NCBI GenBank assembly: GCA_030674185.1
Contig: JAPXFY010000031.1
Span: forward strand, 1,439,908 to 1,503,907
Source of the DNA: Monoplex corrugatus
Lineage: Eukaryota; Mollusca; Gastropoda; Littorinimorpha; Ranellidae
Reading direction: 5' to 3'
Length of the DNA: 64,000 nt
Made by a program: the position numbers and the translations under genes. The notes under the pieces were generated by a model that was given only the letters and a program-made list of their open reading frames with translations, searched no databases and was not told the origin of the DNA. Positions 15,180-64,000 of this stretch are shown piece by piece (the first letter of the stretch is position 1; the number at the start of each line of letters is the position of its first letter).

Positions 15180-16258
15180 GTAACATATTATTTGGATGTC
15201 ATTATCAACACATGTGTGACATACCATTATTTGGATGTCATTATCAACACATGTGTGACGTACCATTATTTGGATGTCATTATCAACACATATGTGATGT
15301 ATCATTATTTGGATGTCATTATCAACACATATGTGATGTATCATTATTTGGATGTCATTATCAACACATATGTGACGTACCATTATTTGGATGTCATTAT
15401 CAACACATATGTGACGTATCATTATTTGGATGTCATTATCAACACATATGTGATGTATCATTATTTGGATGTCATTATCAACACAAGTGTGACGTACCAT
15501 TATTTGGATGTCATTATCAACACATATGTGACGTACCATTATTTGGATGTCATTATCAACACTATGTGACGTATCATTATTTGGATGTCATTATCAACAC
15601 ATATGTGACGTATCATTATTTGGATGTCATTATCAACACATGTGTGACGTATCATTATTTGGATGTCATTATCAACACATATGTGACGTATCATTATTTG
15701 GATGTCATTATCAACACATGTGTGACGTATCATTATTTAGATGTCATTATCAACACATGTGTGACGTACCATTATTTGGATGTCATTATCAACACATGTG
15801 TGACGTATCATTATTTGGATGTCATTATCAACACATGTGTGACGTATCATTATTTGGATGTCATTATCAACACATATGTGACGTATCATTATTTGGATGT
15901 CATTATCAACACATGTGTGACGTACCATTATTTGGATGTCATTATCAACACAAGTGTGACGTACCATTATTTGGATGTCATTATCAACACATGTGTGACG
16001 TACCATTATTTGGATGTCACTATCAACACATGTGTGACGTGCCATTATTTGGATGTCATTATCAACACATGTGTGACGTATCATTATTTGGATGTCATTA
16101 TCAACACATGTGACGTACCATTATTTGGATGTCATTATCAACACATATGTGACGTACCATTATTTGGATGTCATTATCAACACATATGTGACGTACCATT
16201 ATTTGGATGTCAATATCAACACATGTGTGACGTACCATTATTTGGATGTCATTAGCCA
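15180..16258. repeat. 39-bp satellite array
   Basis: About 27 copies of a 39-bp unit: TTATTTGGATGTCATTATC AACACATGTGTGACGTACCA, with TATG/TGTG and TACC/TATC variants. Because 39 is divisible by three and the unit lacks stops in several frames, a 359-codon frame of 13-residue repeats results. I regard it as non-coding. The right edge decays into AAATGTGCATGACATGG. Confidence 0.96.
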
Positions 16259-16354
16259 TAAATGTGCATGACATGGCATTATTCGGATGTCATTAGCAAT
16301 GGAACCATTCCATCCTTGTTGTGTTTGACCCCTGGCCCAAGCCGTCATAGGCAG

Positions 16355-19655: not shown

Positions 19656-20957
19656 TCATTCTAGCTCACGCAGCTCTTGCATTCCAGGAAAGTACCAGGA
19701 GGCACTGCGCACATTGCGAGAGAGGCGGAAGACGTTCTGACAAGCGCTGTTGAGCTTGCCCCCTCCACACGCCGAGCTGATGAGCCGATCCAGCAGAAGT
19801 TCGTTGTAGCGGGGTGTGCTGGCGTAGCTGACGAAGAACAGGCCTGATTGTCCACCTTTATACCAGTAAGGCAGGGAATGGCGCAGCATGCAGAACGTCC
19901 GCCGGATTCTGGTGAGGCCCGGGGTGCACACAATCTGGCTTTCTGGATGTTTCTTCTGCATGTCCAGGCACTCTTGGTAAGCCTCTGTCATCCACTGATC
20001 CATGGACATGTGGGACAGCTCTGCTCCCAGCATGGATTTGAACTTCTTCTCTCCTGGAGGGCCGGCGCACTCTTCCCAAGCCCAGTCCACCCAGTCGTTC
20101 ATAGTGACGTCACCGTTGGAGGTGATGAATTCGACGTCATGCACCCATCTTTGCGTCATGACGTAATTGCCGCCGGTTTTGTTGTCCAGGGGTGCGGCTT
20201 CTCTTTTAGGTTCTGTGTCGTCAGTGCCTGTGTCACTGACAAACAGCAGGCGAGGTTTGTCCTCATTCACGGGACCAGACGGAGGAAACAGCTCCATGTC
20301 TCCTCTGGTGTACTGGTAGGTCAGGACGTTGAGCTCGTCTTCATCATGCTCCGCCTGGGTGATGTCCTCAGGGTAACGAGTCTTGCCATAGGTCTCTTCA
20401 TGGCACAGGATGCTGTCCCGGGGAAGGTTGTCCAGAACTATCTTGCTCAGGTCCATCAGTAGGTCCTCATCATTAGACTTGGCGTGGACGAGGATGTCGC
20501 CACCCACATATCTGCTGCAGATGAGACTGTGCTTGGCGTTGGTGAAATGCTGAGGAGCTCCACCCTTGATCTGCTGGTAGAACTCAGGCCCAAAGCCCAC
20601 CCCGGCAAGGACCTTCAGATTGCCACAGCAGTCGTCTACAGGTGCCTCCACTGCTTGCACGTACTGCTGTATTCTGGCAACGCTGCACGCCACCTGTTGG
20701 GGTCAGCCTCTTTCTTGACCCAGATCCACAAAAACAGTGCGTGCGCTTTGTCATGGGAGGTCACACAAGGCTGTGACCTGGCAGAGGCGGCGAGGTCGAG
20801 GTAAAAGGCGTCATCAGGACGAGGCATCAGTCCATCCCGAGGCTTCACCTCTGTCACTTGCTTTACGGGCTTTTTGACGGCTCGTGATTTCTTCAGCCTA
20901 GATTTTTTACTTTTGTTCTCAGCTCGTTTGACCAAGGACTCCCCCTGTGCCAGAGTT
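19656..20957 (-). pseudogene. DyP/YfeX-type haem peroxidase-like protein, frameshifted
   Basis: Two overlapping minus-strand frames together give about 430 residues. The N-terminal frame starts at or before 20,957 and has a basic KSKKSRLKKSRAVKK patch, then HALFLWIWVKKEADPNR. After a shift near 20,690 the second frame reads VARIQQYVQAVEAP, VGFGPEF, GGDILVHAKSNDEDLL, TGGNYVMTQRWVHD, RHSLPYWYKGG and LFFVSYASTPRYNELLL. These follow the order of DyP/YfeX peroxidases, which oxidise dyes and porphyrins with haem. The usual GXXDG motif appears degraded to FVSDTGTDD. Where YfeX-type enzymes have the haem-ligand His (SH-V), this has ESQIV. No introns are seen; a CTGTACAG acceptor-like site lies just upstream. 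The shift may be a GG/GGG sequencing slip, so the gene could be intact. Confidence 0.65.
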
Positions 20958-22500: not shown

Positions 22501-22501
22501 G

Positions 22502-23100
22502 TTTTGTCACAGAAATCTGTACTGCAATGCTGCACGTTTTGTCACAGAAATCTGTACTGCAATGCTGCACGTTTTGTCACAGAAATCTGTACTGCAATGC
22601 TGCACGTTTTGTCACAGAAATCTGTACTGTAATGCTGCACGTTTTATCACAGAAATCTGTACTGCAATGCTGCACGTTTTGTCACAGAAATCTGTACTGC
22701 AATGCTGCACGTTTTGTCACAGAAATCTGTACTGCAATGCTGCACGTTTTGTCACAGAAACCTGCACTGCAATGCTGCACGTTTTGTCACAGAAATCTGT
22801 ACTGCAATGCTGCACGTTTTGTCACAGAAATCTGTACTGCAATGCTGCACGTTTTGTCACAGAAATCTGTACTGCAATGCTGCACGTTTTGTCACAGAAA
22901 CCTGTACTGCAATGCTGCACGTTTTGTCACAGAAACCTGTACTGCAATGCTGCACGTTTTGTCACAGAAATCTGTACTGCAATGCTGCACGTTTTGTCAC
23001 AGAAACCTGTACTGCAATGCTGCACGTTTTGTCACAGAAATCTGTACTGCAATGCTGCACGTTTTGTCACAGAAATATGTACTGCAATGCTGCACGTTTT
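22502..23100. repeat. 35-bp satellite array
   Basis: About 17 nearly identical copies of TTTTGTCACAGAAATCTGTA CTGCAATGCTGCACG. Variants are mostly single transitions (ATCTG/ACCTG, TGTACTG/TGCACTG). The unit has no stop codon in any plus-strand frame, so three overlapping open frames of 155-230 codons arise. None shows evidence of being a gene. Confidence 0.97.
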
Positions 23101-34246: not shown

Positions 34247-36505
34247 CATCATCATCATCATGTCGAGTTTGCTCGGCTATCCATGACACGTTTATTCCAT
34301 CCTTCTCTGTCAGACATTGCAGTAGGTAGTTTATCATACTGACAGCCCGTATCATCCATCAGTTGGTCGATGAAGGTCTTCTTTGGACGTCCTGGTCTTT
34401 GTTTGCCGTGGCTGGGTCTCCATAGTAGAACATCCCCCACCAGTTCTTCTTTGCTACGCCAGCAATGTCCCGCGAAGTGCAGTCTTTGTTGTATTGATTT
34501 ACTGATTGGTGGGATCTTACCATATAACTCTTTGTTAGTTGGATGTTCTCTCCAGGATTTGTTCAGGGCTGCACGCAGCATTCGTGTGTATGCTCCATCA
34601 ATCTTCTTCTCCAATGTCGTTGTTAGAGTCCAAGAGATTGAGCCATATGTAAGAACGGACTCTACTGCTACTCGGAAGAAGTTTCTTTTCAGGTTGTCTG
34701 GTAGCGTCTGCTCTTCTGTTCTGTGAGGGTAAAGCCGAACTTTTTGTTCTTATCCACTGTTTTCCTCAGCACATAGTCGAGACAGATGATGAAAATGTAG
34801 GGGGCAAGCGTATCTCCTTGAAGGACTCCAGCAGTGATGTCGAAGAAGTCTGTGTCTCCATCGGGGGAGCGAACCATACAGCGGGTATTCTGATATAGCA
34901 TCATGATGGCGTCTACTGTTTCCTTGGGTAGTCCATATGCAGTTAGAATCTCCTTCATCTTTCCTCGGTGGATCGAATCAAAAGCTTTGGAAAAGTCGAT
35001 AATTAGGAGAACAGCTGGGAGGTTTTTGGTTTTTATGCCTTCCAGTATGCGTCTGATGGTGAGTATTTGTCCAGATGTCGATCTGTTTTGGCGAAACCCG
35101 TTTTGGTTTTTCCTCAGAACTGGATCTATCTCTGGCCTTATCCTATTTAGGAGCATTAGGTTGTAGATCTTTGCAGCAATTGCAGTTAATGTGATTTTTC
35201 ACATTAGTTCTTTGTGAGTGTGAGGTTACCTTTCTTGGGGAAAGGAAGCAGGCATCCTTTAGTCCATTTGTCTATTGGGTCTTGGTTATAAACGTTGTTA
35301 CAGCATTCCAGCAGTGTCTGGTGAAATTCCTCTATTTTCCATACTTCCGCTAGTATCTTATCAAGTCCGCATGCTTTTCCACACTGAATGCTTTTCACTG
35401 CTATCAGTAGTTCGTCCAACGTAAACGGCCCTTTCTTGATATTCACTCCTCCGTGAAGACTGGAGTTATTTCTTCTTCAGAGATGTCTGGAGGTTTCCGG
35501 AGTAGGTCTTAGAAGTGTTGTTGCCACAGTTTTACTCGCTCTTTTTTGTTAGATGCTTTTAGCTTAGCTCTGTTACAGCTTTTTCTACCACTTATTTCGT
35601 TTACGTTTTTCCAGGCAACAGCAGACTTTTTGTTGCTGACAGCATTTGTGATCTGGTCGATCTTGCTTTGTAAGTAGTTCGTTTGCTCTGCTTCATAGGC
35701 CTCTATGAGAGCAGCTCGAGCATTATTGAGGTAAAAGATGTTCTCAGGGGATGGTTGAGAGTCTTTTAGTTGTGCAGCTTCTTTTAGTTGCTTGCGTTTT
35801 TGACAGATTTCCTCATTTACCCATGCAGTTTGTTTTTTTTACTTTGGGTTTCAGCGGGATAGTGTCTGCAGCTGTTTCTTTACAAGCCATTTCAAAGTGG
35901 TTGTATGTCATGTTAGCAGTCTTTGCTGAGGCTGTATCTTGTAGGGCAGCAAATCTATTTCTCAACCTTGTAATGAAGATGTTACGAATTTCAGGGTTGT
36001 CGTTTAGAGTTGAGTAGTCATATGGGGTAGTATTGCAAGATTTCTTTCTATTTGCTCGAAGGCACAATCGAAGTCGAGCAGAAACGATGCGGTGGTCTGA
36101 TGCAACACTGACAAACGAGTTGAATGCTCTGCAATTTTTTTCACTATTTTTTCCATTTCTTATTGATGATAATTTAGTCGAGTTGTGCTTTGGAGATTTG
36201 TGTGTCCATAGCTGACCTGGTCTTTTCTGGTATAGAGTTTTGAGGCATAAGAGATTGTTTTCATTGAGATACTCTTTTAGCGTAGAGCCAGTTCTGTTAG
36301 TCTGAGAGTGATATGCATATTTGAAGTCATCAAGGTTTCCAAGTTGTGTATTGAAGTCGCCACCAATAATGAGGATGTTGTGCTTCGGGACTTGTCTGTT
36401 GACTGATGTTAAGTCCTGATAAAATCTTTCGACTTCCACTTCATCACTTACATTTGTGGGACTATAACAGGAGACTATCGAGGTTCGAGGATTTCCGTTG
36501 AAACC
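34247..36505 (-). pseudogene. LINE ORF2: endonuclease C-terminal half and reverse transcriptase
   Basis: Minus-strand frames in order. 36,439-35,813 gives the endonuclease C-terminal part (ILIIGGDFNTQLGNLDDF and ASDHRIVSARLR, with the SDH motif). 35,446-35,204 gives SIQCGKACGLDKILAEVWK and KWTKGCLLPFPKKGNL. 35,156-34,740 is the RT core (RKNQNGFRQNRSTSGQI, LIIDFSKAFDSIHRGK, GVLQGDTLAPYIFIICLDY). 34,614-34,258 is the C-terminus (TRMLRAALNKSWREHPTN, RLHFAGHCWRSKEELV, GRPKKTFIDQLMDDT). The LQGDTLAPY box is typical of a Proto2/RTE-like lineage. At least four frameshifts or stops separate the blocks, and the YADD box lies in a broken stretch near 34,690. Confidence 0.85.
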
Positions 36506-37384
36506 TTGTCAGTCCTAGGATAAGCTGGCAAGCATCAGGAGAAGTCAAACGCTCCAACCCAGCAGATCCCCAGGTGGCGGATAGGGGAATGCCCTGTTAT
36601 GGGGTAGCTGTGAATATTCAATAAGCAGCCCCGGACCAAATCATGGGAGGCCCTTTGGCAAGGCCGAGCACCCATCAGCCACCCTTGCTGGGGTTACAGG
36701 GAAACCATGGAGAGCAGCATGGCGGATGTGCACATCAGCGGAGGAACTTTGTTTAGTCAACGGTGAAGTACACAAGACGCTGGACAGAGACGCCCAGGGT
36801 CACCTAGTTCAGTCAAAGAACTACTGCTCACACGTGAATGGAGTGGCGACCGCAAGTGCTTATCTAGCTGAAGAAAGCAATGAAATGACACTGATTCAAA
36901 GAAGTTCATCCCGCATCGCTCGTCGCGCGGTCAAACAAGGAGCGCGTCCTGCAATGGTGTCTCAGGCTGCAGTCGAAAAATCAGCTACTGAGACCAAAGT
37001 ACCAAAAACTCGAAGCTTCAATACAGGACTGATGAAAGGAAAGAAAGACATCTTCATAGCTACTCTCAATGCCCGTACACTTCAGAAGGAGGGACAGATA
37101 CCTGAAGTAATTGCGTCAGCAGAATCTACAAACCAAAACATCATTTGCCTGCAAGAACATAAATTCTTATATGAAGACATTGCAACAAAAGAACACCACA
37201 TCGGAAGTTGGAAGCTGATTACACGTTCAACCTTGAAAAACAGCGTGAATGCTGCAACTGGCGGAATTGGAATGCTTCTCAGCCAGCAGGCCTACAATGC
37301 ACTTAGCAATGTCGAAATGATATCTCCAAGAATAATGATAGCTACTTTCAACGGAAATCCTCGAACCTCGATAGTCTCCTGTTA
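36506..37384 (+). pseudogene. LINE 5' UTR and endonuclease N-terminal half, inverted
   Basis: About 210 bp of 5' leader precedes an open frame from about 36,726. Its first ~110 residues are low-similarity, Ser/Arg-rich. It then becomes the APE N-terminus: IFIATLNARTLQKEGQI, NIICLQEHKF and ATGGIGMLLS. NGNPRTSIVSCY ends the shared block, exactly where the minus-strand part begins. The frame stays open past the breakpoint only by chance, to 37,499. Without the inversion it would precede the piece at 36,439. Confidence 0.82.
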
Positions 37385-37767: not shown

Positions 37768-40730
37768 TTAATCATCATACTCAATGAAAAGTTCTTTGAA
37801 TTTTGGAATTTCGTCCAAAACATTCTTGAATTTGTTACTAATGTTAGTATCTTGTGCAAATTTTATGTTAGTTGGGAGTTTATTCCACAAAGGGGCAACT
37901 CGATGTGAAAAAGAAAATGTTCTTGTGTTAGTACGACAGTGCTGAATAAATATCTTTCCTTCCTTGTTTCTTGTGATATTACATTGTGAAACAGAATAGA
38001 GTGAGTCAACACAAATATTATCAACTCCATTAAATATTTTATATGTTAGAATAAGATCACCTCTTGTCTTTCTGTCTTTAAGTGAGTGTAATTTCAAATA
38101 CTTCAATCGTTCTGCATAAGATTTATCTTTGCATTCTTTTAAAAGCTTTGTTGCACGTCTTTGTACTCTTTCTATTTGCGCTGACTATCTTTTCAAGGAT
38201 GGACACCATATTGCATTTGCATATTCCAAATGTGGTCTAACAAAAGATTTAAATAGTTTTAGAAATATATCCTTATTTAAATAAGAAAAGCTTCTCCTGA
38301 TAACTCCCAACATTTGATTTGCTCTATTAACTATTTTACCAATGTGTAAATCGAAGGACAACATGCTATCGAAAGTTACTCCCAAATCCTTTTCCTCTTT
38401 TAGGATTTTTATCTGCTTTATGCTGTCATTTTGTCTCATATAATATGTGTATTCTTGGTTGGTTTTACCAATATGTAGTACACCACATTTAGAAATATTG
38501 AAATATAGATTCCATACATCTGACCAATCTTGGAGTTTATAAATATCATTTTGTAAAACCGCGAATTGAGATGTGTTGTCATATAGTTTTGTATCATCTG
38601 CAAATATTTTACAGGTGCTATTTAGTGATATTGGCAAGTCATTTATAAACACTGTGAATAGTATTGGGCCCAGGATACTACCCTGAGGTATACCACTTAA
38701 AACCTTAGCTTTATTAGATCTTTCACCACCTACTCTCACATGCTGTACTAGATCTTTCAAAAAACCTTGTATCCAGTTTAATAGTTTGCCAGATATACCA
38801 TAAGCAGACAATTTGACTAGTAACCTTTCATGGGGCACAGTATCAAAGGCCTTCTTAAAATCTAAGTATATAACATCAACATTATGACCATCATCTAATA
38901 TTTTTGTCATATCTTCTACTAGTTCAAGTAATTGTGTTACACAACATCGCTTTTTACGAAACCCGTGCTGACACTTTACATACAATTCATTATCCGTGAA
39001 GTGACTTACTATTGAATCTCTAATTTTGCTTTCTAACACTTTACATATCACACAAGTTAGGCTGACTGGTCTGTAGTTTCCTGGATCTGCTTTAGAACCC
39101 TTTTTAAACAAGGTTGTTACTTCAGCTGTCTTCCAGTCTTATGGTAGGGTACCTGATTCTAATGTCTTGTTGAACAGAGAACATAGTGGGACTGATAGTT
39201 CTTCACCTAGTTCTTTTAAAACTTTTGAAGGAATATGGTCAGGTCCCTGTGCTTTATTTGGGTTTAAGTTAACTAATTTGTCACTCACTGCTTTTGGGGT
39301 AACTCTTACCCCTGACAAGGATACACCATTTGAATATGCACATTCAGCCAGTAAGGGTATATTTGTTACATCTTCACGTGTAAAAACACTAGCAAAGAAG
39401 TCATTTAGAGTTTCTGCTTTTTCCTTATCACTTACAGCCTAAGATCCATCTGGTTTATTTAGAGCACCTATATTTGTATTGATTTTTAACCTAATTTGAA
39501 CATACTTCCAAAATAATTTAGGATTATCTTTACTATCTTTTGCAACCTTTTTTTTCATATTCCCTTTTTGTTACCTTTAACAGTTTTGTGCATTTATTTC
39601 TTTCCCGTATGTAATTCATATAATTCACTCCTTATTTAGTACTTAAGTATCTTTTAAATAATTTGTACTTCTTTTTAATGCTTCTCATAGCTTTTTTATT
39701 CATCCAGATTGGGGTATATTTCTTCCTAGCATTTTTCCTTATTTTGGGGATACACTTCTCTATTCCTTCATGTATAGTATTCTTTATATACTTCCATGTT
39801 TCCTCTATGTCCATATCTGATATAACCTTCCAATCGTGTTCAATTATCATACTTCTTAATTTAGAGTAGTCCCCCCGGTACAAATTATAGATAAATTCTA
39901 CTTGATCTGTAGCTTTAAGCTTTTCCAAATTTAATTGAAATGATAAGACGTCATGGTCACTTTTACCCACCGGATCGAGATGTACAACCTCTAAAATAAA
40001 TGTATCATCATTAACTAAAACCCAGTCATCAAGAGTTGGGTTTTGCCCTAGTCTTCTTCTTGTTGATTTAGTCACCTTTTGAATTAAGAATGAATCCTGC
40101 ACCTGTCTCATGATCTCATTTCCTTTTTCCCCTGACCATTTCCCATCCCAGTGAACATTAGGATAATTGAAATCGCCCATAATGCATATCTCATCATATT
40201 TTAACATTTTGTCTGATTTTAAGATTTCAAACAGTTTGTTATTATTCACTACCGTACTGGTGTTAGGATTTCTAGACACACATCCAGTCAACACTTTACC
40301 ATTACACACACAATCCAAAGTACACCACACACTTTCTTGATACTTATATTCATCAAATTCATCACAATCACGAGCATTCAGGTGTTTATCCACATATACG
40401 GCTACACCTCGTTGGTGATCCGTATTAATGAAAATGTCAAAATTAAGGATGCAGAACTCTTTCTCACAAAAATTTCGTAAATTCTTAGGTATTAATTCAG
40501 TTCATGCAATTACGCTTGGATGAATATTATCGATCCTAGAAAACAATTCTTTTTTGTTCAAGAAACCATCAACATTAGAATAAACACATGGAAAAAAATC
40601 TGAACTTTTGTTATTTACACTATGTACATGTTTGCCTTGTAGCCAATTGCCAGAAGAACCAGCTCTAGGGGTGGCCTCAGCGTCCCCGACAGAGTGTGAT
40701 TGGCTTCTTGAGCCCGGTTTAAGTGTCACT
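37768..40730 (-). pseudogene. CR1-type LINE ORF2 (endonuclease and reverse transcriptase)
   Basis: Endonuclease: CVYSNVDGFLNKKELFSRI, then after a TGA near 40,500 GVAVYVDKHL, ICIMGDFNYPNVHW and VGKSDHDVLSFQL (catalytic SDH). Linker: ARKKYTPIWMNKKAMRSI, FFASVFTREDV and PDQIPSKVLKELG. RT (39,111-38,185): GNYRPVSLTCVICKVLE, HGFRKKRC, IYLDFKKAFDTVPHERLL, SGIPQGSILGPILFTVFIND and KIFADDTKLY. C-terminus (38,106-37,768): RKTRGDLILTYKIFNG and FSHRVAPLWNKLP. Premature stops lie near 40,500, 39,639, 39,440, 39,135 and 38,185, each explicable by one substitution in otherwise continuous frame. All catalytic motifs survive, so the copy looks young but dead. Confidence 0.88.
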
Positions 40731-42895: not shown

Positions 42896-44040
42896 AAATA
42901 TTTTATTTCACACGAGTCTAAAATATTAAAGTTCAATTTTTGTTGGAAGTGAACAATACTCAAAACTGCACGTTAGTTATAACTGATGTTCTCTTCACTG
43001 CTCAGTCAAATAATGACACATCAATAGAAACAGACTGATGAACAAAACCAGATATAATAACAGGAACAACTTTTTCTACTTCAAGTTAAATTGACAGTCA
43101 ACTCCTTGAATTGTTGAGATTTTTTGTTTGAGACAATAGAGTCATGAAGATACATTTGACTTGGAAAATCAGACAATGTGACCCTGAAAAAAGCTTCAGT
43201 CAGAATAAAAGCTGACATGCATCAAGACAATGGTAGATTGTCACGACAATGAAAAAAGATTTGAGAAACTATCAGAAGTTCCAGCGAAAATGCTGCTTAC
43301 ATACCTTTAAAAAAGATTGATTTTAGTCCATGTGACCTTGACCATTGACACAGTCGTCCAAACTTATGCATTCGCTTCTCTTCAATGGCCCGCACCTTTG
43401 CACACACCTTTAATTATTTATTCATTTACGTTATACATATATGCTCCTTTTTGGAAGATAAGATACACAGATACACATTCATTTACATGTAACCAAGATT
43501 GTTCCAATGATAGGCTGACACAATACCAGTAGAAAACATACACTTGGTAAAACATAGGCCAGGTAGGGCCTCAGGACTTAGCCAGCTCATGGGTTCATGT
43601 ACAGGATTAAGGCTTGTGCCATGATCACCATACACATGGCACCTGTGACGTAAATGAATATGGAATTCGTTCCGAGCGCTGAGACGTTGTCTTGACAAAT
43701 TGAAACTGAAACTGAAATTGAAATCGAACACAGTCTGGTGGAGACCGTTCGAAAAAAAGCTGAGAAAACCTTGCTAATATATTGTGGTTATGGACACACA
43801 CACACTCACACGCATACTCTTGATCCTCCCAGATAATATAAAACAATTTCCCTTTTTAAAACGAATAAGGAAATAGGAAAAGAAATGAGTTAAACAATGA
43901 GTTAAATAACTGCATTACGATCAAATCTCAACATGAACAAAGCTGCCTAATTCCTCTGTTAAGACTGACAGAGAAATAGAATAGTTGCCCAGTCATATTT
44001 ATTCTTGTCCATACTTGAACTAACGTGCTGTCTGCTGCCA
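42896..44040. other. Unassigned upstream flank of receptor copy 1
   Basis: No gene seen. It contains dispersed repeat family B copy 2 (listed separately). A promoter or signal-peptide exon for the receptor may lie here but cannot be recognised. Confidence 0.4.
43455..43722 (+). repeat. Dispersed repeat family B, copy 2
   Basis: Second copy of 14,783-15,046, ending in CTGAAACTGAAACTGAAATTG. Confidence 0.85.
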
Positions 44041-47000
44041 GTCTGTGAAAACGTTGTGACACACGGAAGTACCACACACGCTACCACCAACAGTAGTTCC
44101 ACTGGTCCCGAGTACATTAGAGACAGGTGTCCAGGTGTAGACTACATCTTGAACCAGAACAAAACCAACATCACAACCCTACAGGTCAATCTCTCAAACT
44201 GCGGGGAGGGAAAAATGGCAAACGCTCTCAAACACCATAGAGTAGTGCATGGGATCTGTGCCAAGTCCGTTATTTTCTGTCTTATGCATGTAGAGGTGCC
44301 ACACAATATGTTTGTACGTGCACATGTTCAGTGGTTTTCCATCTGGTGTGATGATGCCATTAAAAGGGAGTCAAAAATATATGACGATAAGCCTTCAGCT
44401 TTGCTCTACCATCGGCAGTGCGATCGTCATTCTGTTAACGAAAGATATATTGAATCATCCACAAACCACATGTATATTGTGCACTATAACATTCCTCTGG
44501 TTAAAATAGAGATTGAAGAAATTCACTATCACAATTTCTTACAGTGAACTTATCAACACATTCAGGATATGTGATATTACCTATTCAAGGTTTGTCTGAC
44601 ACAGTTCCTCGTGATATTGGGAAGAACTGAAAGCACCCACTGGAAGTGTCATCATGGTCAGCTTTCAGGGAGCATCAAAGATACATGTTACCTGTACACA
44701 GAACTAATTTTCACAGAGACAAATACAAATCAACAAATTATCTTGCAGGTGTGTGATGAAAATAATTCTTCAACAGAAATCTTTCCAACCTCTTGCCTTC
44801 AGATACATGTTTGTATTCGAGACACAACAATGGCCATTGACAGTAGCAGGCTAAAAATATTATTTCTTTTCACATTGAGACTAAACAACCTCAACAGTTC
44901 CCCAGTGGTTTGTTCAACTGTTCTGTGGATCACTATTCCAGCTTTCAGCACCACCTGGACTGTAACCTGAAGATAGAGTGTGAAGATGGACAGGATGAAA
45001 CAGAACACTGCCCCTTCAGTAGTCCTGACTGTCAGGGTTTGGTGGCTTCACACAATAAATGTTTTCAAAAACTCACATTTGATATACCATTGACTCCAAG
45101 CCTAGGAAAAACTGAGTGTATGAATATAGGTGGAAGGACTGGCTTCAGTCAAAACCAGAAAAGAATACACGATTTCCTTCAGATTTTCAAAAACCTATGA
45201 AAGTTTTTTGTATTCTTAGGTTACTCTTCAGGTTGGAGCTCTGTGTTTTCATGTATAGTAAACTTCGTATGTGGTCTGACAACACCTTAATCTACAACGT
45301 GAAACATTTCAGGACTGCTGTTAAATATTATCCTTCAAGGACGGTCATGTCTATGTTATTTGGGTCAGTTATTAAATATCCAACTCCAATATCACGTAAT
45401 GAGTCATTGTACTGTGTGTGAAATAAAAGTACAGTCAGAAAACCTGCTTCCTGTCCAAATGATAAAGTTCCCTGTCTTACGTCCATCTCTGTCCACCTTC
45501 ACACAGACCCAGCAGGTCTTGTCTGATTGCCCAGATGGTCATGTGACACACTCATTTTTGTCATATGATTTAAAGAGTGAGTTTGGAAAAAATACGCACC
45601 ATCAGTTTTCATTGCATTGGAATATGAGTATCAATATGAACAAAGTACTAGTACCACCAGGAAAAAGTGCTTTAGTTACACTGGACATGTTTGTCTGTGA
45701 TGATGATATCACAACACTGCCTTACACCTTGGTGTGTGACTTCAAACACGACTGTCCAGATCACAGTGATGAGTCATTCTGTCAACATCCTTCATGCAGT
45801 GGTTTTCTGTGCACCAACGATCAGTGTGTTGAACAGTCAACGTTGTAGTGAACTGTCAGATTGTCTGGATGATTCTGATGAAAGTGACTGTGGCTTCACC
45901 TTCTCAGAGCCTCATAGAGAGGCAAACTGGAAGCAACGACTGTTCATTAACCTGGATGGCATCAGGTTACATTTACTCAGCAAGAAATGAATGCTAACTG
46001 AATTTGTCCTGAAACTCATTACTTATGTACAGAAGACTGGTTGTACTGTCTCCCTGTCTACACACGATGCAACGGATTTTCTGATTGTACATATGGTGAG
46101 GATGAACAAGACTGTGAGACATCACCTGTTCTGGTTTCTACCGTGTCTGGTTCCAAAGTTTGCATTCATGGAGATCATCTGTGTGATGGCTGGGGTCATG
46201 TCCACAGCGTGATGATGAATGGTTCTGTGACATGACCTGTCCTGATGGCTGTCACTGTCAAGGTCATTCTTTCTTGTGTCCCTTGGCTTTCTGTGCTGAC
46301 CTCTTTCTTTATCTACGGTACTTGGACGCTTCAAGGTCCGGGATGAAGCTTGCTGATTTCAGTGACAATGTACATCTTATTCGTCTGAGTCTTTCCTTTT
46401 GTTCTTTAGTTGATATATCAAGTGTGAAGCTCTCCGACTTACAGTTCCTTGATCTGACCTGCAACCAGCTAAAAACTCTTAATATGAAAGCGTTTCTTGA
46501 ACTAACAAATTTACAGATTTGATTTTATCAGGCAACCCTTTGACATCACTGAACAACAAAGCAAGTTTCTTTATCCACTATGCACTAAGAAAAATAGACA
46601 TGTCAAGAACACGTCTGCAGAACTTTAACACTGAATTGTTCCTGTACTTACCAGACGTAATACATATCAATCTATCGCATTCGGCCATAAGGACCATTGG
46701 ATCTGTTGGTTTAAAGACCATACCACAGTTAAACGAAATGGACATAAGAGGAAATCCAGTTCATGATTTTCCTCTGGATTTATTTTCCGGATTATGTGAT
46801 TTAAAGCGATTCTTTACTTCAAACTTTAGATTTTGTTGTAAGAATTATTTCCTAAAGAGTTGCGTACATTGGCATGTGTAGCACCACAACCTATTGTTTC
46901 ATCCTGTAAGTCGTTGTTAAAAACTGAACTCCACAAGGTTTACTTTTGGCTGATCAGCGTTATTGCCCTATCAGCAAATATGGTTTCCTTTGCACCTCAG

Positions 47001-47836
47001 GTCAGGGTAAGTAAAATGTTTAGAGGTACCTTTAATGTGTTTATTGCCATTTACGAACTGCAGATACACTTATGGGAATCCACGTGATCATAATTACAGT
47101 TGCTAATGAAATATTCCGTCAGACATACACCTACTCAGAAAAGACATGGACCAGCAGTGCCACTTGTAAAATAGCTGGTTTTCTGTCCTTTCTGTCCAAT
47201 GAAATGTCAGTTTTGATCCTCTGGTTCATCACACTGGATCACATCATTGTCATTTGTTTCCCCTTTACGACATGGATATTCAATCGACATCTGATAACTG
47301 CAGCTTGTACAGTGACCTGGTGTGTTGGATTTTTGTTGTCTGTGATACCTTTTCTTCCTGGACTGTCACATTGGGGCCTTGATGGCCAGTCTGGTCTGTG
47401 TCATCTGGCTCTGTCTGACAGTAACTCCAAAGAAGAGTTCAGGTGGTTCACAGTCACTATCGTGTTTAACTGTTTCCTATGCTCCATGGTGGTTGTTGGT
47501 CAACTCATCATTTACAGACGAACGCCAATCCATCTGATCTTAATTGATCCCACAAAAAAATTGGTTTACTCTTCAGTCCATCTGTTGATAAAAGTGGCTG
47601 TAACAGATGCTATGTGCTGGTTGTCCCTCGTCTGACCAGTATGATAACCTTAGATGGTGCATTAGACAAGGTTCATGTGACCATGGTTGTGTTCATGTTA
47701 CCAGCTCAACTCTGCACTCAACCCACTGCTGTACATATGGACTGTTGTAATGCATCAACGACAAATGGCACAGGACGATAGACTGTTACGAATGTTAAAG
47801 ACACGACTGTCACTGCAAAAGAAATATATTGCATGA
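44041..47836 (+). pseudogene. GRL101-type LDLa/lectin/LRR GPCR, broken copy 1
   Basis: Pieces follow the order of the better copy at 56.7-60.4 kb. They start at an acceptor-like TGTCTGCTGCCAG with a region holding paired cysteines (RDRCPGVDYIL, LSNCGEG), then a CUB-like stretch. Next: LDLa (FNCSVDHYSSF ... DGQDETEHC), lectin-like start (CQGLVASHNKCF, CMNIGG), and further LDLa (YTLVCDFKHDCPDHSDESFC, YTRCNGFSDCTYGEDEQDC, CIHGDHLCDGW). The LRR block follows (CPDGCHCQGHSFLC, LQFLDLTCNQLKTL, MDIRGNPV). Then 7TM: ADTLMGIHVIIITVA (TM2), SNEMSVLILWFITLDHIIVI (TM3, DRY changed to DHI), VTIVFNCFLCSMVVV (TM5) and LNSALNPLLYIW (TM7, NPxxY kept). Stop TGA at 47,834-47,836. About a dozen frame breaks occur; some sit in homopolymers (e.g. 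near 46,520), but their number suggests a pseudogene. Confidence 0.85.
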
Positions 47837-52164: not shown

Positions 52165-54245
52165 ACTTTTTCCTTCCGCTTGTACCGGTGGGCGTCGCGG
52201 GGAGATACAGTCATCTGTCAGCATCAAGGTGGGTGGCCTGGAGAAGGGACATCTCGTGAGCTCTGAGGGTGTTTGCCACGGAGTCGCTCCATCGTCGTCT
52301 TGGTCTTCCTCTGGCTCTCCAGCCAGAGTATCTGGTGTTGTATGCCCGAAGAGCTGGATGGTTTAGGGGCATACGTGTGAGGTGTCCGAACCACTTGATC
52401 CTCATATGTTCGATGTGTTGTAGGATTGGTGTTGCTCCTACCATGTCTCGTATCACCTCATTTCTGATCTTGTCCCGCCTTGTCTTGTTTACTGCTTTCC
52501 TCAGGCATTTCATTTCATTGGTGACCAGTTTTCTCTCGAGGACTTTAGTTAGGGACCATGTCTGGCACTGGTATGTCAGCGTTGGTAGAAAAATGTTGTT
52601 GATGAGTTTCGCCTTAGTGCTGGTTGGAATGCCGGGGTGTTTCAGGAAAGGGGCAAGTTGGTAGCTGACTGCGTTGGCTTTCTGGTATCTAGTCTCGATT
52701 TCTCTGTCTAGTTTGCCATTTTCAGTGAAGATGCTACCCAGGTATTTAAATTCACTGGCTTGCTTCAACTGGGTTCCGTTGATGTTGATATCCAGTTTGT
52801 TTGGTCTCTTACTGACAGTCATGACCTCGGTCTTGCTGACGCTGATCTTCATGCCGTATGTCTCGCAGCTTTCATTGAGCTGGTCTGTGTGCTCCTGTAG
52901 CTGTATCTTGTCATTGTTCACCATTGCCTGGTCGTCCGCAATCATGAGTTCATTGAGTGCCTCAAGGTCTGGGTTTGCCTCCTTCGTAATCTGATCCATA
53001 TAGATCACGAAGAGAAGAGGGGAGAGATTACAGCCCTGCCTTACTCCCGATGTCACTGGGAACCAGTCAGATGTTCCACTGGCGGTGCGGACTGCACTCC
53101 TGCTGTTGGCGTAGATGGCCCGAATGTTCTCTAGCAGCTGGCCCTTGACGTCGTACTGCTCGAGGACCTTCCATAGCTTGTCTCTGTTGACTCGAGCAAA
53201 GGCCTTTTCTTGATCAACGAATACAAGATGGAGATCTCGGTCGTATTCGATCGCCCTCTCGCACAGTTGTCGGAGTGCAAAGATTGCATCGGTGCACCCT
53301 CTTCCTTTTCTGAAGCCAAATTGGGCGTCACTGGGGAGATGTTCTGTTTTTGCTCGAGTGCGTTGCTCCAGGATCTTTGCGTACATTTTCCCTACATGGC
53401 TGAGTAGTGATATGCCTCTGTAGGTACTGCAGTCTTTCTTGCTGCCCTTCTTCTTCCATATTGGCACCACTATTGCATTTTGCCAGTCTTCTGGTACTTT
53501 TCTCTCCTCCCAAGCTTTCTGAAAGATGGTGGTGAGCCACTGAATTCCGGTTTCACCACACACATGGATGGCTTCAGTTGTTATGCCGTCGTCTCCAGCT
53601 GCCTTGCCTTTAGGATTGGTCTTCACTGCTTTTCTTACTTCACTCTCTAGGATGGTAGGTTCTGAGTGGTCTGGGTGGCTGGGAGTGAACCGGGACTGTG
53701 TGTCTTGTGCCCGTACTCCTGATGGGTTGAGTAGGTTTTTGAAATAGTTTTCCCATCTCTTCACTATTTTCTCCTCTTCATGCAATGTTTCCCCGTTTGC
53801 ATCGTTGATGATAGTGGTTGGATCGAAAGGTTCATCTCGCACTCTCATCGCTTTCACACTCTTGTAAAACTCTCTTGGGGAAGCTTTACATGTTTCACAG
53901 AGTTTTTCACCATACTGGGTCCATGACTTTTCCTTTGCTGTTCTCACAACTTTCTTGCTGTGTCTTCTTGTAAGTCTGTACTTGATGTAGTCCTCTTCAT
54001 CCTTTGACTTGACCCAGATCTTGTATAGTTTCTTCTTTCCTTGATAGCATCCTTCACTTCTTTGTTCCACCAAGCTGTTGCCTTTCTGTTTCTTCCTCCT
54101 GTCTTCTTGGTGCCACAGGCTTCTTTTATAGTGTCCAGGAGGACTGTCTTGAAGATGCCCCAAGCTTCCTCTACGTTTAATAATGTAGGGTCACTAGAGT
54201 CCAATTTTTCACTGATGGTGCATCTGATCTGAGTCTGCACCTCTT
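52165..54245 (-). pseudogene. RTE-type LINE ORF2, 5'-truncated
   Basis: A 650-codon minus-strand frame (54,163-52,211) covers the linker, RT and C-terminus. Motifs: PKGKAAGDDGITTEAI, TYRGISLLSHVGKMYAK, FGFRKGRGCTDAIFALRQL, LVFVDQEKAFARV (first Asp kept, FD changed to FA), SGVRQGCNLSPLLFVIYMD, MIADDQAM (catalytic DD kept), SEFKYLGSIFTENGKLD, KWFGHLTRMP and GRPRRRWSD. Upstream, another frame (TLLNVEEAWGIFKT, TAWWNKEVKDAIKE) joins at about 54,040 after a one-base slip in an A/G-rich run. There is no endonuclease. The left side is the 3' end with AAAGTAAAGTAAAAG. It lies between the two receptor copies, opposite in orientation. Confidence 0.9.
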
Positions 54246-56739: not shown

Positions 56740-59700
56740 CTTCACCAAACTGTCACAGTTGTCAAGTGGACCAAATGGTTTAACACATATTACAGCCACA
56801 TCATCTCTGTCAAGTAGAGTAACTGGAGACATGGCCAAGTACAACTCCTCTGACCACCAAGCCCCATGGCAGCCAGCAGGAACTGGAAAGAAAACCGCCA
56901 TACTCATCGTCAGACCATGTAGTCAGTGAACGAAAGAAAAATATGGCCATGATCACCATAACAGGTAGGTAAGATTTATACAATGATCCCAACGAAATTT
57001 GATGATAGCTACCCATCTATTTATTCAGACATAACTGCCACCATGAAAAATAGATATAAACATTTCTATGCTTTTTTAATTCAAGGAAATGATGGGTTTC
57101 AATTCAACAAAAGAATCAGTGGAACACGTACTATTTATGTGAAAACATCACCAACATCTGGATACATCACGCCAAACGAGAAATACCATTTTGAAAATGA
57201 TCGGTTATCATGGACAAGAAGTATACCTGTCCTTACTGGGCACGTGGTTATGATCAGTCTGAGAAGAACATATGTTTATTTTGATTCAATACCCCTAGAA
57301 TTATACACATCCAGCACCAATGGACCAAAATTGTTTGTGGGAATTGACAGTGGGTATGAAGATTTCATCACTTCTGTGTTTCAGACAACAAAAGTCATTG
57401 TTGTGCTCAGAGGCTGGGGCTGTTCAAATTCACCCTGTTTTCGAGTGTTCTTTTCCTTTCATTCTGAAAAACTAACACCACAAAGCTATCAAGTGGTTCG
57501 TTTAACTGTTCTGTGGATCACTATTCCAGCTTTCAGCACCACCTGGACTGTAACATGAGGACAGAGTGTGAAGATGGACAGGATGAAACAGAGCACTGTC
57601 CCTTCAGCAGTCCTGAGTGTCAGGGTCTTATAGCGTTATGTAACCACTGCTACAAATATGTCAGTTATAATATTCTGCGTGGATTTAAAGCAAGAGGACA
57701 GGATTTATATCAGACTGATACAAAGTACTGTCAGGCCATGGGGGGTATACTTGGGATACCTAAATGTGAAACTAACTGGATTGCAATGATAGCAAATATA
57801 ACACTACCATATCTGTATTTCTCAAAACGCATTTCATCTGGTTTGACAGTTGGTGATATTTCTTTACCTGATATGTACAGGAGGAATGTCATTAGTGAAG
57901 ACAGGACAGTCTTCTACCATTCTCTTCTTATCGGGTCTTCTGTGAACATGGAAGGATATAAACAATGTGTTCGCATTCACTTTGGTGGACAATTTCATGC
58001 ATTAGGATGCTTTTCGTATGACAGGAGACAAATAGTTTGTGAGTTCACACAAAAACAGAGCCAAGCATATCCTCATCGTTCATCAGCAATATTACTTAAC
58101 AGCACACGATTTTCAATGCGCTTAGACCAGCAATCTCTGACCACCTGTCCTGACGGTCATATTACACACACAGTTCTGTTGTGTGGTTCACAGCTGTATG
58201 AAGTGTGTGCCCAAGGTCACACATTTTCTTGTACTTTTCCTGATCACCTGTCACACACACATGGTGGGCTTCATTCAACAAAAGTGCACGTAACTCTTGT
58301 TCCTTTATTTACCTGTGATCATGATGTTAGAACGCTGTCATACACCCTGGTGTGTGACTTCAGACCTGACTGTCAAGATAGAGCTGACGAGTCTTTCTGT
58401 AAACATTCTCCTTGTGTCAACATGTTTACTTGCGCTAACGGTCAGTGTGTGTCCTATGGTTTTGTCTATGACTTCGCTTCCCAATGTAAAGATGACTCAG
58501 ATGAAAATATCTATACTGAACGCAGAGTAACAAGAGCCCAATATCGATATTTTCCTTCTCCTGCTCTCGTCTATTTTGATAATATCAATATTTTCATGTC
58601 AACTCCAATGAAGTCAAATGAGTCCTGTCCTGACACCCACTATCGTTGTCCTGGTAAGTTCAATGACTGCCTGCCTCTCTACTCACGATGCAATGGGATG
58701 CATGACTGTATTGGCCACGAGGATGAAGCAGAATGTGAACAAAGCATATGTCCAGGATTGTTCCGATGCAGAGCTTCCAGAATATGTCTACATGATGAAT
58801 ATTTGTGTGATGGCTGGACTCACTGCCCACTGGATGATGATGAACTGTTGTGTGATGTAGATCTGACCTGTCCTGTGGGCTGTCTGTGTCAAGGTCACAC
58901 ATTTCTGTGCCATCAACCTTTCTCTGCTCATCACTTCCCACAGCTCCGTTATTTGGATGCCACAGGTACAGGAATGAATCTGTCTGATGTGTGTAATCAT
59001 ACCTATCTTATTCATCTGATTCTTGCTCAGTGTTCATTGACTGTCCTGTCCAACATGGAGTTGCCTAACTTACAGTTTCTTGATCTCACTGGCAACAAAC
59101 TACAACATGTCAACATGGCATACTTTGTTGGCTTAGAAAATCTACAGACACTGACCCTGTCTGACAATCCTATTGTCTCACTCTGCTCTGATCCATCATC
59201 TGTCATTCAGCAAATTACCCTCACAGTGATAGATCTGTCACACACCAAACTGACAACATTTGGCACCAATATTTTGTCAGCGTTTTTGCGCTTGCAGAAG
59301 CTTAATTTAACGTACACCAAGATTCATACCATCAGCACTGGTGGTTTTCAATCAACGCCACAGTTAGCTGAATTGTACATGAAAGGTAGTCCCTTGAAAC
59401 AGTTTCCACGCGATCTATTCAAAGATCTTAACTATCTGCATCTCATAACAACACAAAACTACAAATTATGCTGTGGTGAAATACTCCCACGTGGTTTTCA
59501 TGATGCATTTTGCTATGCCCCCAAAGACGAAATTTCATCATGTGAAGATTTACTGCAGTCAGGAATGTATCGCGGATTTCTCTGGCTGATCAGCTGTCTG
59601 TCAGTGACTGGTAACATCTTCTGTTTTCTTGTTCGCTTGAGTGCACACAAGATGACTTCTTCAAGTGGCTTCACTGTGTTTGTCACCAATCTGACCATGG

Positions 59701-60441
59701 CTGACTTTCTGATGGGTGTCTATATTGCTATTATTGGTGTGGCTGATGAACTGTTCCGTGGTAGATATCTTTATTATGATGACACATGGAAAGCAGTGTG
59801 GCCTGTAAGGTGGCTGGATTTTCTGTCTCTGCTGTCCAGTGAAGTATCGGCTCTCATCATCTGCCTCATCACACTGGATCGTTTTATTGTCCTTTGCTTT
59901 CCATTCACACCTTGCGATTTGAGAGAACATCAGCAGCAGTGGTTTGTCTGTTGACTTGGTTGGTTGGTTGGCTTGTTGCCTTGTTACCTTTGCTTCCAAT
60001 GACATCTCACACTGGGAGTTCTACAGTCAGACAGGCATCTGTATTCCACTACCTGTCACTCGTAAAACTTTAAAGGGCGGGTTTATTCCTTTGGTGTGTT
60101 GATCGTCTTTAATTTCATTCTGTTTGTGTTGATCTCAGCTGGCCAAGGTTTTATCTACTGGTCAATACAGAAAAATGCACTAACAATCAACACGACCAAA
60201 GTATCACGAGGACATAATCATAGCTCGGCGGTTGATTTCTGTGGCTGTAACTGATTTCATGTGCTGGTTTCCCATTGGACTGTGTGGATTTTTGGCATTG
60301 GCTGATATTCCCGTCCCTGGAGAGGCAAATGTAGCCTTGGCTATTTTCGTACTGCCCTTAAACTCTGCTCTGAATCCATTCATTTACACATTTAACACAC
60401 TGGCAGAAAAACGTAGAAAATCCAAGAAAGTAAAGTGTTAA
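56740..60441 (+). CDS. GRL101-type LDLa/lectin/LRR GPCR, copy 2
   Basis: Putative cell-surface receptor of the relaxin-receptor (type C LGR) group. A CUB-like region spans 56,983-57,500, with weaker coding from 56,740 after an acceptor-like CACTG-TCACAG. An 813-codon frame (57,513-59,954) follows. It holds LDLa 1-30, C-type lectin-like 36-177 (ending GCFSYDRRQIVCEF), and LDLa 264-296, 300-335, 372-408 and 412-447. LRRs occupy 453-650 (CPVGCLCQGHTFLC cap, LQFLDLTGNKL), and the hinge 650-682 (NYKLCCGE, CYAPKDEISSC). TM1 is 687-708, TM2 719-743 (NLTMAD) and TM3 768-797 (LDRF). TM4-TM7 follow after small shifts near 59,910, 60,015, 60,065 and 60,205: LVGWLVALLPLLP, FGVLIVFNFILFVLISAGQG, ISVAVTDFMCWF and LNSALNPFIYTF. 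Stop at 60,439. No intron is needed. Most shifts vanish if a homopolymer gains one base, so the gene may be intact; otherwise it is a recent pseudogene. Confidence 0.8.
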
Positions 60442-61440: not shown

Positions 61441-62130
61441 GAGAGAGAAGACGATGTCATAATCTTTGCTGACAACAAAGAACGCCTAAGTCAAATGCTT
61501 GTAGAACTGAACGAAACCAGCTTAGAGTTGGATTGAGCATGAACATGACGAAAATTAAAATAATGTGTAGCGACCATGTGGAAGACAAAGACAAACGATC
61601 GTAATTGACAACCACACAGTAGAAGAAGTCGACCACTATATCTACCTAGGTCTGTACGTATCGATGGACTCAGCCTATAAGGAACAAGAGATCAGACGTC
61701 GCATTACGCTCGGATAGCAAGCATTCGGTAAAGCAAGCGCCATCTTTAGAAATAAAGATATGCCAATTGTATTAATTATGACCCTTCATGGCCCGTAACC
61801 CCTTGGCAAATGGTTGCGCCTGAACATAAAAAGGGTGTGGCAGTGAAAGGGTTAAACGCCGAGTGTAGGACGCATGCATAACTCCGACTGTGACATATGG
61901 AGCCGAAACATGGAACCTGACGAAACGGCAGCTCCTAAAACTGCTAACTATGCAAAGGGCTCACGAACAGATCATGATGGATGGGTAAGAGGAAGAACGA
62001 AGGTCCAAGACATAATAGATACAGTTTGTGAACGGAAGTGGAACTGGTCTGGTCATGTCATTAGGAGATCTGACAACAGATGGACCACCAAAGTGACGTT
62101 CTGGATCCCGCGAAGCCAAAAAAGGAACAG
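61441..62130 (+). pseudogene. RTE-type LINE RT C-terminal fragment
   Basis: Plus-strand pieces: IFADNKERLSQMLVELNETS (RT box with AD-N), a broken YLGL-type stretch, and FRNKDMPIVL. Then, after an insertion, TVTYGAETWNLTKRQLLK, TMQRAHEQIMM, RTKVQDIIDTVCERKWNWSG, HVIRRSDNRWTTKVTFWIPR and KRNRGR. This is the standard ORF2 tail of RTE-like elements common in invertebrates. Several stops and shifts. A 76-bp TTAA-flanked sequence splits it at 61,776-61,851. Confidence 0.8.
61772..61855. mobile_element. TTAA-flanked mini-insertion, possibly piggyBac-like MITE
   Basis: A 76-bp segment is flanked by TTAA on both sides and interrupts the LINE tail between MPIVL and the RRV/K region. Its right end, read inward, is CCCTTTCACTGCCACACCC. 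The left end has CCCTTCATGGCCC offset by six bases, a loose inverted match. TTAA duplication and CCCTTT ends are features of piggyBac-type elements. Confidence 0.5.
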
Positions 62131-62147
62131 AGGTCGCTACCTTCTGT

Positions 62148-62380
62148 CCTGATGGTGCCGCCTTCACCTTCTGTCCCGCTGGTGCCAGCCTTCACCTTCT
62201 GTCCCACCGGTGCCGCCCTCATCTTCTGTCCCGCTGGTGCCGCCTTTGTCTTCTGTCCTGCTGGTGCCGCCTTCATCTTTTGTCCTGCGGGTGCCGCCTT
62301 CGTCTTCTGTCCCGTCGTTGCTGCCACGCTGGTGTCGCCTTCATTTTCTGTCCCGTCGGTGCCGCCTTCATCTCCACCTC
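62148..62380. repeat. 30-bp tandem repeat
   Basis: Seven to eight copies of GCCGCCTTCATCTTCTGTCC CGCTGGTGCC with variations. It reads through as 10-residue repeats on either strand and sits just before the LINE endonuclease frame. Confidence 0.9.
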
Positions 62381-62384
62381 GGCC

Positions 62385-64000
62385 ACTGCCATGTGACTGT
62401 GATAAACTAAAACTATGCCTTTTTAACGCTAAGTCAACATGCAAAGATGGCAAAGCCAATGTCATTGCTGACTTCAACGCAGATGAGCATGTTGACATTG
62501 CTTTTCTCACCGAAACATGGCTTAACCCTCTTGGTCATGAACCTATACATGTGAGTCTCACTCCGAGTGGTTACAGGCTTGCTTCTTTCCATCGCTCATC
62601 CCGAGGTGGTGGCATCGCCATCCTCTACAACGACTCACTCCATTCCCGCCTATCTTTCTAGCAGTCTCTGCCTTTTCCCATCCTTCTTTCGAGCACATTG
62701 AAGTATCCTTCCAATCCACCCCTCACCCCATCACCTTCTCCTGTGTCTATCGACCTCCACCTAGCTCTGCCAACAAGCTCACCACATCCACGTTTCTCTC
62801 TGACTTTGACCAACTACTTGACTACTACTGCCTCTTACCTGGAAATCTCATCATTCTAGGTGACATCAATGTCCACTATGACAACACTCACCGTTATGAC
62901 ACAAGACATATCATCAACTCGCTGTTCAATCACAATATGACTCAACACATTTCTGAACCAACCCATCAAAAAGGTCACACTCTTGACTGGATCATTTCTG
63001 GTGATCACCACAATTCAGCTACTGACAACTGCTTAGTTCTTTCTACCCGTCTAACTTCAGCCCTTCCATCTGACCACTCTGCAATTCTCTGTTCTTTTGA
63101 CATTTCTCCTTCTTCCCGTACCACGCGCACGGTGACTCGACGCAATCTCAAATCTATCGGCCTCTCCACTTTTTCATCTGATGCCTCCCGTCTCCTTTCT
63201 GAAAAGTCACATAACCTTGCCGATGAATTCTATACTACTCTCCACCATCTTCTGGACACTCATGCTCCAGCCACAACCCGTCTTTTACCTGACCACCCCC
63301 CTACCCCCTGGCTCACTCATGAGACTGCCTGTGCAAAACATGCCCGCCGCAGAGCAGAGCGCCGCTGGTGCAAATCCAAACTCACTGTAAATAGGCAACT
63401 TTTCCAAGCCTCTAAAACAAAAGTATCCACCCTCATTGCATCTGCAAAAACAAGCTATTTCCAAACCAAAATCCTGAATGCCTCTTCTTCAAAAGAACTC
63501 TTTACGACCATGAATCATCTCCTTGGCACACGAAAAGATTTACCTCTCCCAACAAAACACACAAATGAAGAACTCCCATCTGTATTCTCCAAGTATTTCA
63601 CCACCAAAATACAAAATCTTCGTGACAGGCTTGACAGGACACCCTGTCAACCATGCCCACCTGACCCTTCCTTCTCTGGCACACCTCTTACTACTTTTAC
63701 CCGTCTCACAAGAAGAAATTCTCACAACAATCAGATCCATGTCGTTCAAAACCTGCGAACTGGATCCTCTTCCAGGTTCTCTCTACTCCGACTGTCTCCC
63801 TACTCTCCTCCAATTCATCACTGACATCATCAACACTTCTCTTCAAACTGGAACTGTCCCAGATTCTTTCAAGTCTGCTATTGTTCACCCTCTCCTCAAG
63901 AAATGCAATTTAGACCCAAATGAACTGAAAAATTACCGGCCTATCTCTAATCTCTCTTTCTTGTCAAAACTCATCGAAAAAGTTGTCCTCAACCAGCTGA
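62385..64000 (+). pseudogene. L2/CR1-type LINE ORF2, 5' part, cut by window end
   Basis: Endonuclease begins CLFNAKSTCKDGKANVIADF and DIAFLTETWL, then GGGIAILY. After a frameshift near 62,660 it continues with TFSCVYRPP, LIILGDINVHYDN, HTLDWIISGD and SDHSAILCSFD (catalytic SDH). A basic linker (HARRRAERRWCKS, SAKTSYFQTKI, FTTKIQNLRD) leads, after another shift near 63,715, into the RT start: SFKSAIVHPLLKK and NYRPISNLSFLSKLIEKVV. The RT continues past base 64,000. Two frameshifts in 1.6 kb, at least one of which could be a sequencing slip. Confidence 0.85.

Follow-up and report, generated by a model that had tools for sequence, protein, structure and literature searches.

We propose, with belief and doubt evenly weighed, that a receptor gene in 64,000 nucleotides of Monoplex corrugatus DNA (contig JAPXFY010000031.1; the window) forms a linked pair with a second GRL101-like LGR gene, in which it is the canonical partner, and that the other, atypical partner may serve in a heteromer as a subunit that either does not signal or has a modulating role. 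In this model, a variable head comprising the CUB-like part, the lectin-like domain and a linker would bind diverse external ligands of microbial, parasite or environmental origin, and the signal would pass through the leucine-rich repeats (LRR) and the hinge to the canonical 7TM part, much as signal transfer in RXFP1 runs through LRR and hinge to its 7TM part. The atypical partner would either complete or modulate the heteromeric receptor. A wider version of the model, which we hold tentatively and are inclined to doubt, is that some snails carry a large germline repertoire in which a G-protein-coupling LGR and a linked 7TM partner that lost the coupling residues, both with variable CUB/lectin heads, duplicate as a unit and would serve to recognize diverse foreign ligands.

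The receptor at 56740-60441 presents, in order, a CUB-like module, one LDLa module, a lectin-like module, four further LDLa modules, the LRR, the hinge and the 7TM part, with the two ends lying in other frames than the middle (Table 1). The middle is a single open frame on the plus strand (57468-59954; 828 codons, 0 stops) that carries LDLa, the lectin-like module, four LDLa, the LRR block, the Cys hinge and TM1-TM3. An earlier sequence-only reading had assigned the modules to one frame; this holds from LDLa1 to TM3, whereas the CUB-like part occupies another frame (56962-57558), and where that reading had several LDLa modules before the lectin there is only one. Its LDLa, LRR and 7TM assignments were borne out by domain search, with Pfam matches to Ldl_recept_a (3.3e-15, five stretches) and LRR_8 (1.3e-17); the 7tm_1 match (5e-6) is under the curated cut-off in the window protein, where the frame breaks after TM3, and is 1.2e-26 in the best relative, P0004. 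The LRR ectodomain, hinge and rhodopsin-type 7TM part of an LGR are thus all present, and there are multiple LDLa stretches (five) ahead of the LRR, as in GRL101 and the type C2 LGRs. The proposed likeness of hinge and 7TM part to relaxin receptors was likewise upheld: the closest PDB entry by sequence is RXFP1 (7tmw; 3.1e-32, residues 530-814), a type C1 LGR that aligns with the window receptor over LRR, hinge and TM1-TM3. RXFP1 has one LDLa module and neither a CUB nor a lectin module. Relatives match (E<=1e-3) only from 57097 on, so that 56740-57097 has no counterpart in them and the 5' end is provisional. Separate genes for the lectin/LDLa and LRR/7TM parts, the case that the earlier reading had named as fatal to it, and a chance juxtaposition of the two were both considered and set aside; separate genes appear unlikely because in the relatives P0004 to P0006 a single protein spans LDLa1 through TM7.

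Table 1. Features of the window, in coordinates counted from its first nucleotide
Feature	Position	Strand	Support or remark
CUB-like module frame	56962-57558	+	Relatives match between 57097 and roughly 57480; frame lost beyond
LDLa1	57492-57596	+	Pfam
C-type-lectin-like domain, GCFSYDRR..IVCEF	57618-58046	+	
LDLa2 and LDLa3	58308-58508	+	Pfam; limits partly by eye
LDLa4 and LDLa5	58620-58862	+	Pfam
Leucine-rich repeats with Cys-rich cap	58863-59459	+	Pfam LRR_8; RXFP1 alignment
Hinge, CC...C...SSCEDLL	59460-59567	+	Aligns with RXFP1
TM1-TM3, TLDRF (D3.49-R3.50)	59568-59906	+	RXFP1 alignment; local frame disturbance near 59790-59820
TM4-TM5 region	59907-60186	+	Spread across several frames
TM6-TM7 (CWFP, NPFIY) and C-terminal tail	60187-60441	+	Terminates at stop
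Second receptor, atypical class	about 44017-47836 (relatives' matches to 47893)	+	Matched by the same relatives
LINE-like reverse transcriptase and endonuclease pieces	52211-54190; 38185-39138; 39632-40501; 35813-36508	-	Pfam
Endonuclease/reverse-transcriptase-looking stretch at window end	62074-63999	+	Three frames, by eye
Dyp-type peroxidase C-terminal domain, short match	19656-20702	-	5.9e-7
Minisatellite array, 44 bp x 106	125-4411		Long array
Minisatellite array, 39 bp x 28.6	15187-16299		Long array
Minisatellite array, 35 bp x 17	22501-23100		Long array

Elsewhere in the window, the LINE-like pieces match RVT_1 (2.5e-35 and 6.1e-33) and PF14529 (1.3e-9 and 3.8e-6, the latter just below the cut-off), and 62541-63821, within the stretch at the window end, gave no Pfam match at 0.01.

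In the window protein, neither Lectin_C nor CUB was matched by Pfam at E<=1. A full-length relative, P0172, which is 39% identical to the window protein across 825 columns, contains both (Lectin_C, 4.7e-7; CUB, 1.6e-6), and fold comparison supports a C-type-lectin-like fold for the lectin module, so that the lectin-like domain of the earlier reading stands. Its CUB-like module, a candidate CUB domain, gains support from P0172; for the CUB-like model the first Foldseek rows were CBM and GOLD domains, with 0 rows at E<=0.001. The EPN/QPD and WND motifs mark calcium-dependent sugar-binding C-type lectins. They are absent from the window lectin piece as read by eye, and none of 116 lectin regions, found by a loose pattern among the fetched relatives, holds either; by these motifs the module is not a lectin of that kind. 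Among the matches listed, the C-type-lectin-like domains of NKR-P1 and LOX-1 are 12-18% identical to it; both are single-pass receptors, unlike the 7TM receptor of the window. Together the modules may make up a multi-ligand ectodomain.

This layout had been taken to go beyond GRL101 and RXFP as something new, a claim that we do not maintain: at SudRes2 of Biomphalaria sudanica, clustered GRL101-like receptors combine LRR, LDL and C-type-lectin-like (CTL) domains in the ectodomain of a GPCR, and this region shows an association with resistance to schistosomes (PMC12297450). The likeness is one of description; the main text of that paper is without the word CUB, and in the part available it describes no atypical sister class. 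GRL101 of Lymnaea and the type C2 LGRs, treated in PMC4079206 and PMC6267866, share with the window receptor multiple LDLa, LRR and 7TM parts (see also PMC12297450), and GRL101 differs by description in that PMC12297450, as far as available, terms the lectin domain unique to the SudRes2 genes.

As to the earlier suggestion of a receptor expansion, a large family of relatives is supported by the matches listed, from which 175 were classed. A search with the window protein yielded at least 118 proteins, headed by Nucella lapillus and ENA records; a single Littorina protein and a handful from elsewhere were also among them. The match lists are partial (at least 118 proteins in the first, the best 120 of 131 in the second, 79 in the third), and the 175 were drawn from lists one and two after removal of P0118 and three mammalian FSH receptors; 12 fragments among them were assigned by BLAST rather than by tree. 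Matches new in the third list entered only the domain-wise trees (22 aligned), and rows that were too short were dropped from the trees. In the tree, the window protein has six Nucella proteins as its closest neighbours, which points to a caenogastropod snail. No Biomphalaria-named protein occurs among the matches listed, most of which are listed without an organism name, and viral contigs, when scanned, contained no relative. One relative, P0208, labelled a Planctomycetota MAG protein, has LDLa and 7tm_1, perhaps reflecting animal DNA in the bin.

The residue at position 3.50 sorts these relatives into a canonical and an atypical class. In readable sequences, the canonical class keeps R3.50 in 91/92, P6.50 in 77/90 and Y7.53 in 82/89; the corresponding figures for the atypical class are 0/62 (His in 49), 2/61 and 12/61. 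A second receptor, upstream of the window receptor on the same strand, reads DHI where the canonical receptor has DRF, with DH at 3.49-3.50 and Ser at 6.50, and the trees place it inside the atypical clade and the window receptor in the canonical class. In a tree of 165 rows, this clade (support 1.0) contains 63/64 sequences without R3.50 and 0/92 with it. It returns in a tree of the 7TM part only (63/66 non-R and one R sequence, P0198; support 1.0) and in one from LDLa2 to the LRR, without the 7TM part (62/65 non-R, 0/103 R; support 0.999); in a tree of LDLa4-5 and LRR the split holds 59/64 non-R and 0/103 R at a support of 0.222, with P0096 (Nucella) and P0099 outside it. R3.50 was also lost outside the atypical clade, in P0095, P0192 and P0193; the latter two have Gly, and here the coupling residue was probably lost independently.

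The two classes tend to occur together. With relatives put on the same contig solely by equal length of the source sequence, 22 of the 25 contigs with at least two members hold both classes (label shuffles average 14.0, and 10 of 20,000 get as high), and when residue 3.50 by itself sets the labels, 17 of 20 contigs are mixed (64 of 20,000). The non-mixed contigs are one with two atypical members and two with two canonical members, in one of which P0073 branches beside the atypical clade. Nucella locus numbers agree with closeness (056773/056774; 062727/062730; 025673, 025674 and 025677); 007560 and 007574 are both canonical. The distances between partners are also correlated (Mantel; pairs taken only from contigs with exactly one tree member of each class, fuller contigs being dropped): across 13 pairs r is 0.92, and across the 12 without Nucella it is 0.83 (0 of 20,000 each), with 0.81 in the LDLa4-5 and LRR trees (11 pairs, 2 of 20,000) and 0.72 in the 7TM trees (11 pairs, 0 of 20,000). 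Agreement of the nearest pair, at 6 of 12, is low. If the relatives mix several species, common descent could by itself increase this correlation. The tendency of the two classes to co-occur suggests a two-part recognition system; we searched the open-licence PMC literature and found no canonical/atypical pairing in print.

It is the outer head that varies most. Mean identity among 69 canonical proteins is 29% for the CUB-like part (2,076 pairs), 31% for the lectin and 28% for the linker; among 52 full-length canonical proteins it is 32% for the lectin and 29% and 32% for two linkers, compared with 53% for the LRR, 76% for LDLa4-5 and 73% for TM1-3. Canonical pairs at least 80% alike in the 7TM part (mean 83%) average 41% in the lectin (167 pairs), 40% in the CUB-like part (160 pairs) and 40% in the linker; 25 atypical pairs average 70% in the lectin and 91% in the 7TM part. 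A hypervariable lectin alone was considered and rejected, and because the CUB-like part and the linker match the lectin in divergence it is the outer head as a whole that diverges fast. Both diversification of a binding head and relaxed constraint would fit these sequences.

As assembled, the canonical copy in the window cannot encode a full-length receptor. In a frame-aware comparison with three relatives per copy, it shows 7, 8 and 6 frame changes, of which 7, 7 and 5 lie at or past about 59790 (the disturbance near 59790-59820 being seen against two of the three), and the neighbour shows 18 and 16 against two long relatives and 12 against a partial one, with 2 in-frame stops each. Either recent pseudogenisation or assembly error fits these breaks. 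Homopolymer errors may be a cause: runs of at least four lie near 17-38% of the canonical break sites, compared with 10-11% of random sites, on 6-8 sites only; for the neighbour the values are 11-19% and 14%. That both copies are decaying pseudogenes, silent on function, so that the relatives alone are informative, seems to us a reading on which the scales are level. The breaks and stops speak for it, as does the neighbour, whose pieces keep 41/46 conserved residues, below all but one of 60 controls (median 42/43); yet the lowest of these controls, itself an atypical Nucella protein, keeps only 38/46. Moreover, the canonical copy has an unbroken length of about 2.3 kb and before its broken end it keeps 107/110 conserved residues (median 110/112 in 69 controls), and its break near 60440 coincides with the stop, where a diverged tail may explain it, all of which argues against decay.

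Linked co-duplication requires no physical partnership between the classes, and the co-occurrence and correlated trees bear on readings other than a heteromer. Atypical chemokine receptors act as decoys or scavengers, and GABA-B is a receptor with one non-coupling 7TM subunit. Both offer a possible analogy for a 7TM partner without coupling residues, although they belong to unrelated families. A decoy or scavenger in place of a subunit, with pairs kept together because signal receptor and decoy are needed in matched doses, would account for co-occurrence and correlated trees and for the loss of R3.50 while the ectodomain was retained. These observations fit a decoy and a subunit alike; we judge the decoy quite unlikely. 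We also think it rather unlikely that the pairs arose solely because a two-gene unit was duplicated in tandem and that the classes act independently, for example as receptors for relaxin- or insulin-like peptide hormones. The resemblance of hinge and 7TM part to RXFP1 is in keeping with such receptors, and insulin-like peptides have been suggested as ligands of type C2 LGRs (PMC6267866, in the part available); as a matter of argument, however, many copies and a fast-diverging head suit diverse ligands better.

The family could instead be chemosensory, with a role in sensing food, mates or habitat and not in immunity, which we regard as a serious possibility while leaning away from it. Chemoreceptors typically form large variable families, and in starfish the sensory tentacles show raised levels of a GRL101-like receptor, according to the available part of PMC6267866. 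On the other hand, in snails the closest lead to a function is schistosome resistance at SudRes2, itself an association, and the validated and top variants lie in a neighbouring non-receptor gene (PMC12297450, in the part available).

Lectin-bearing LGRs sit in a region associated with schistosome resistance of a snail vector, as described in the available part of PMC12297450. If our proposal is true that a signalling receptor and a linked non-signalling one diverge together as a pair, it would provide a concrete, testable model of such receptors, and the recognition of diverse cues by molluscs would be opened to co-expression and complex assays.
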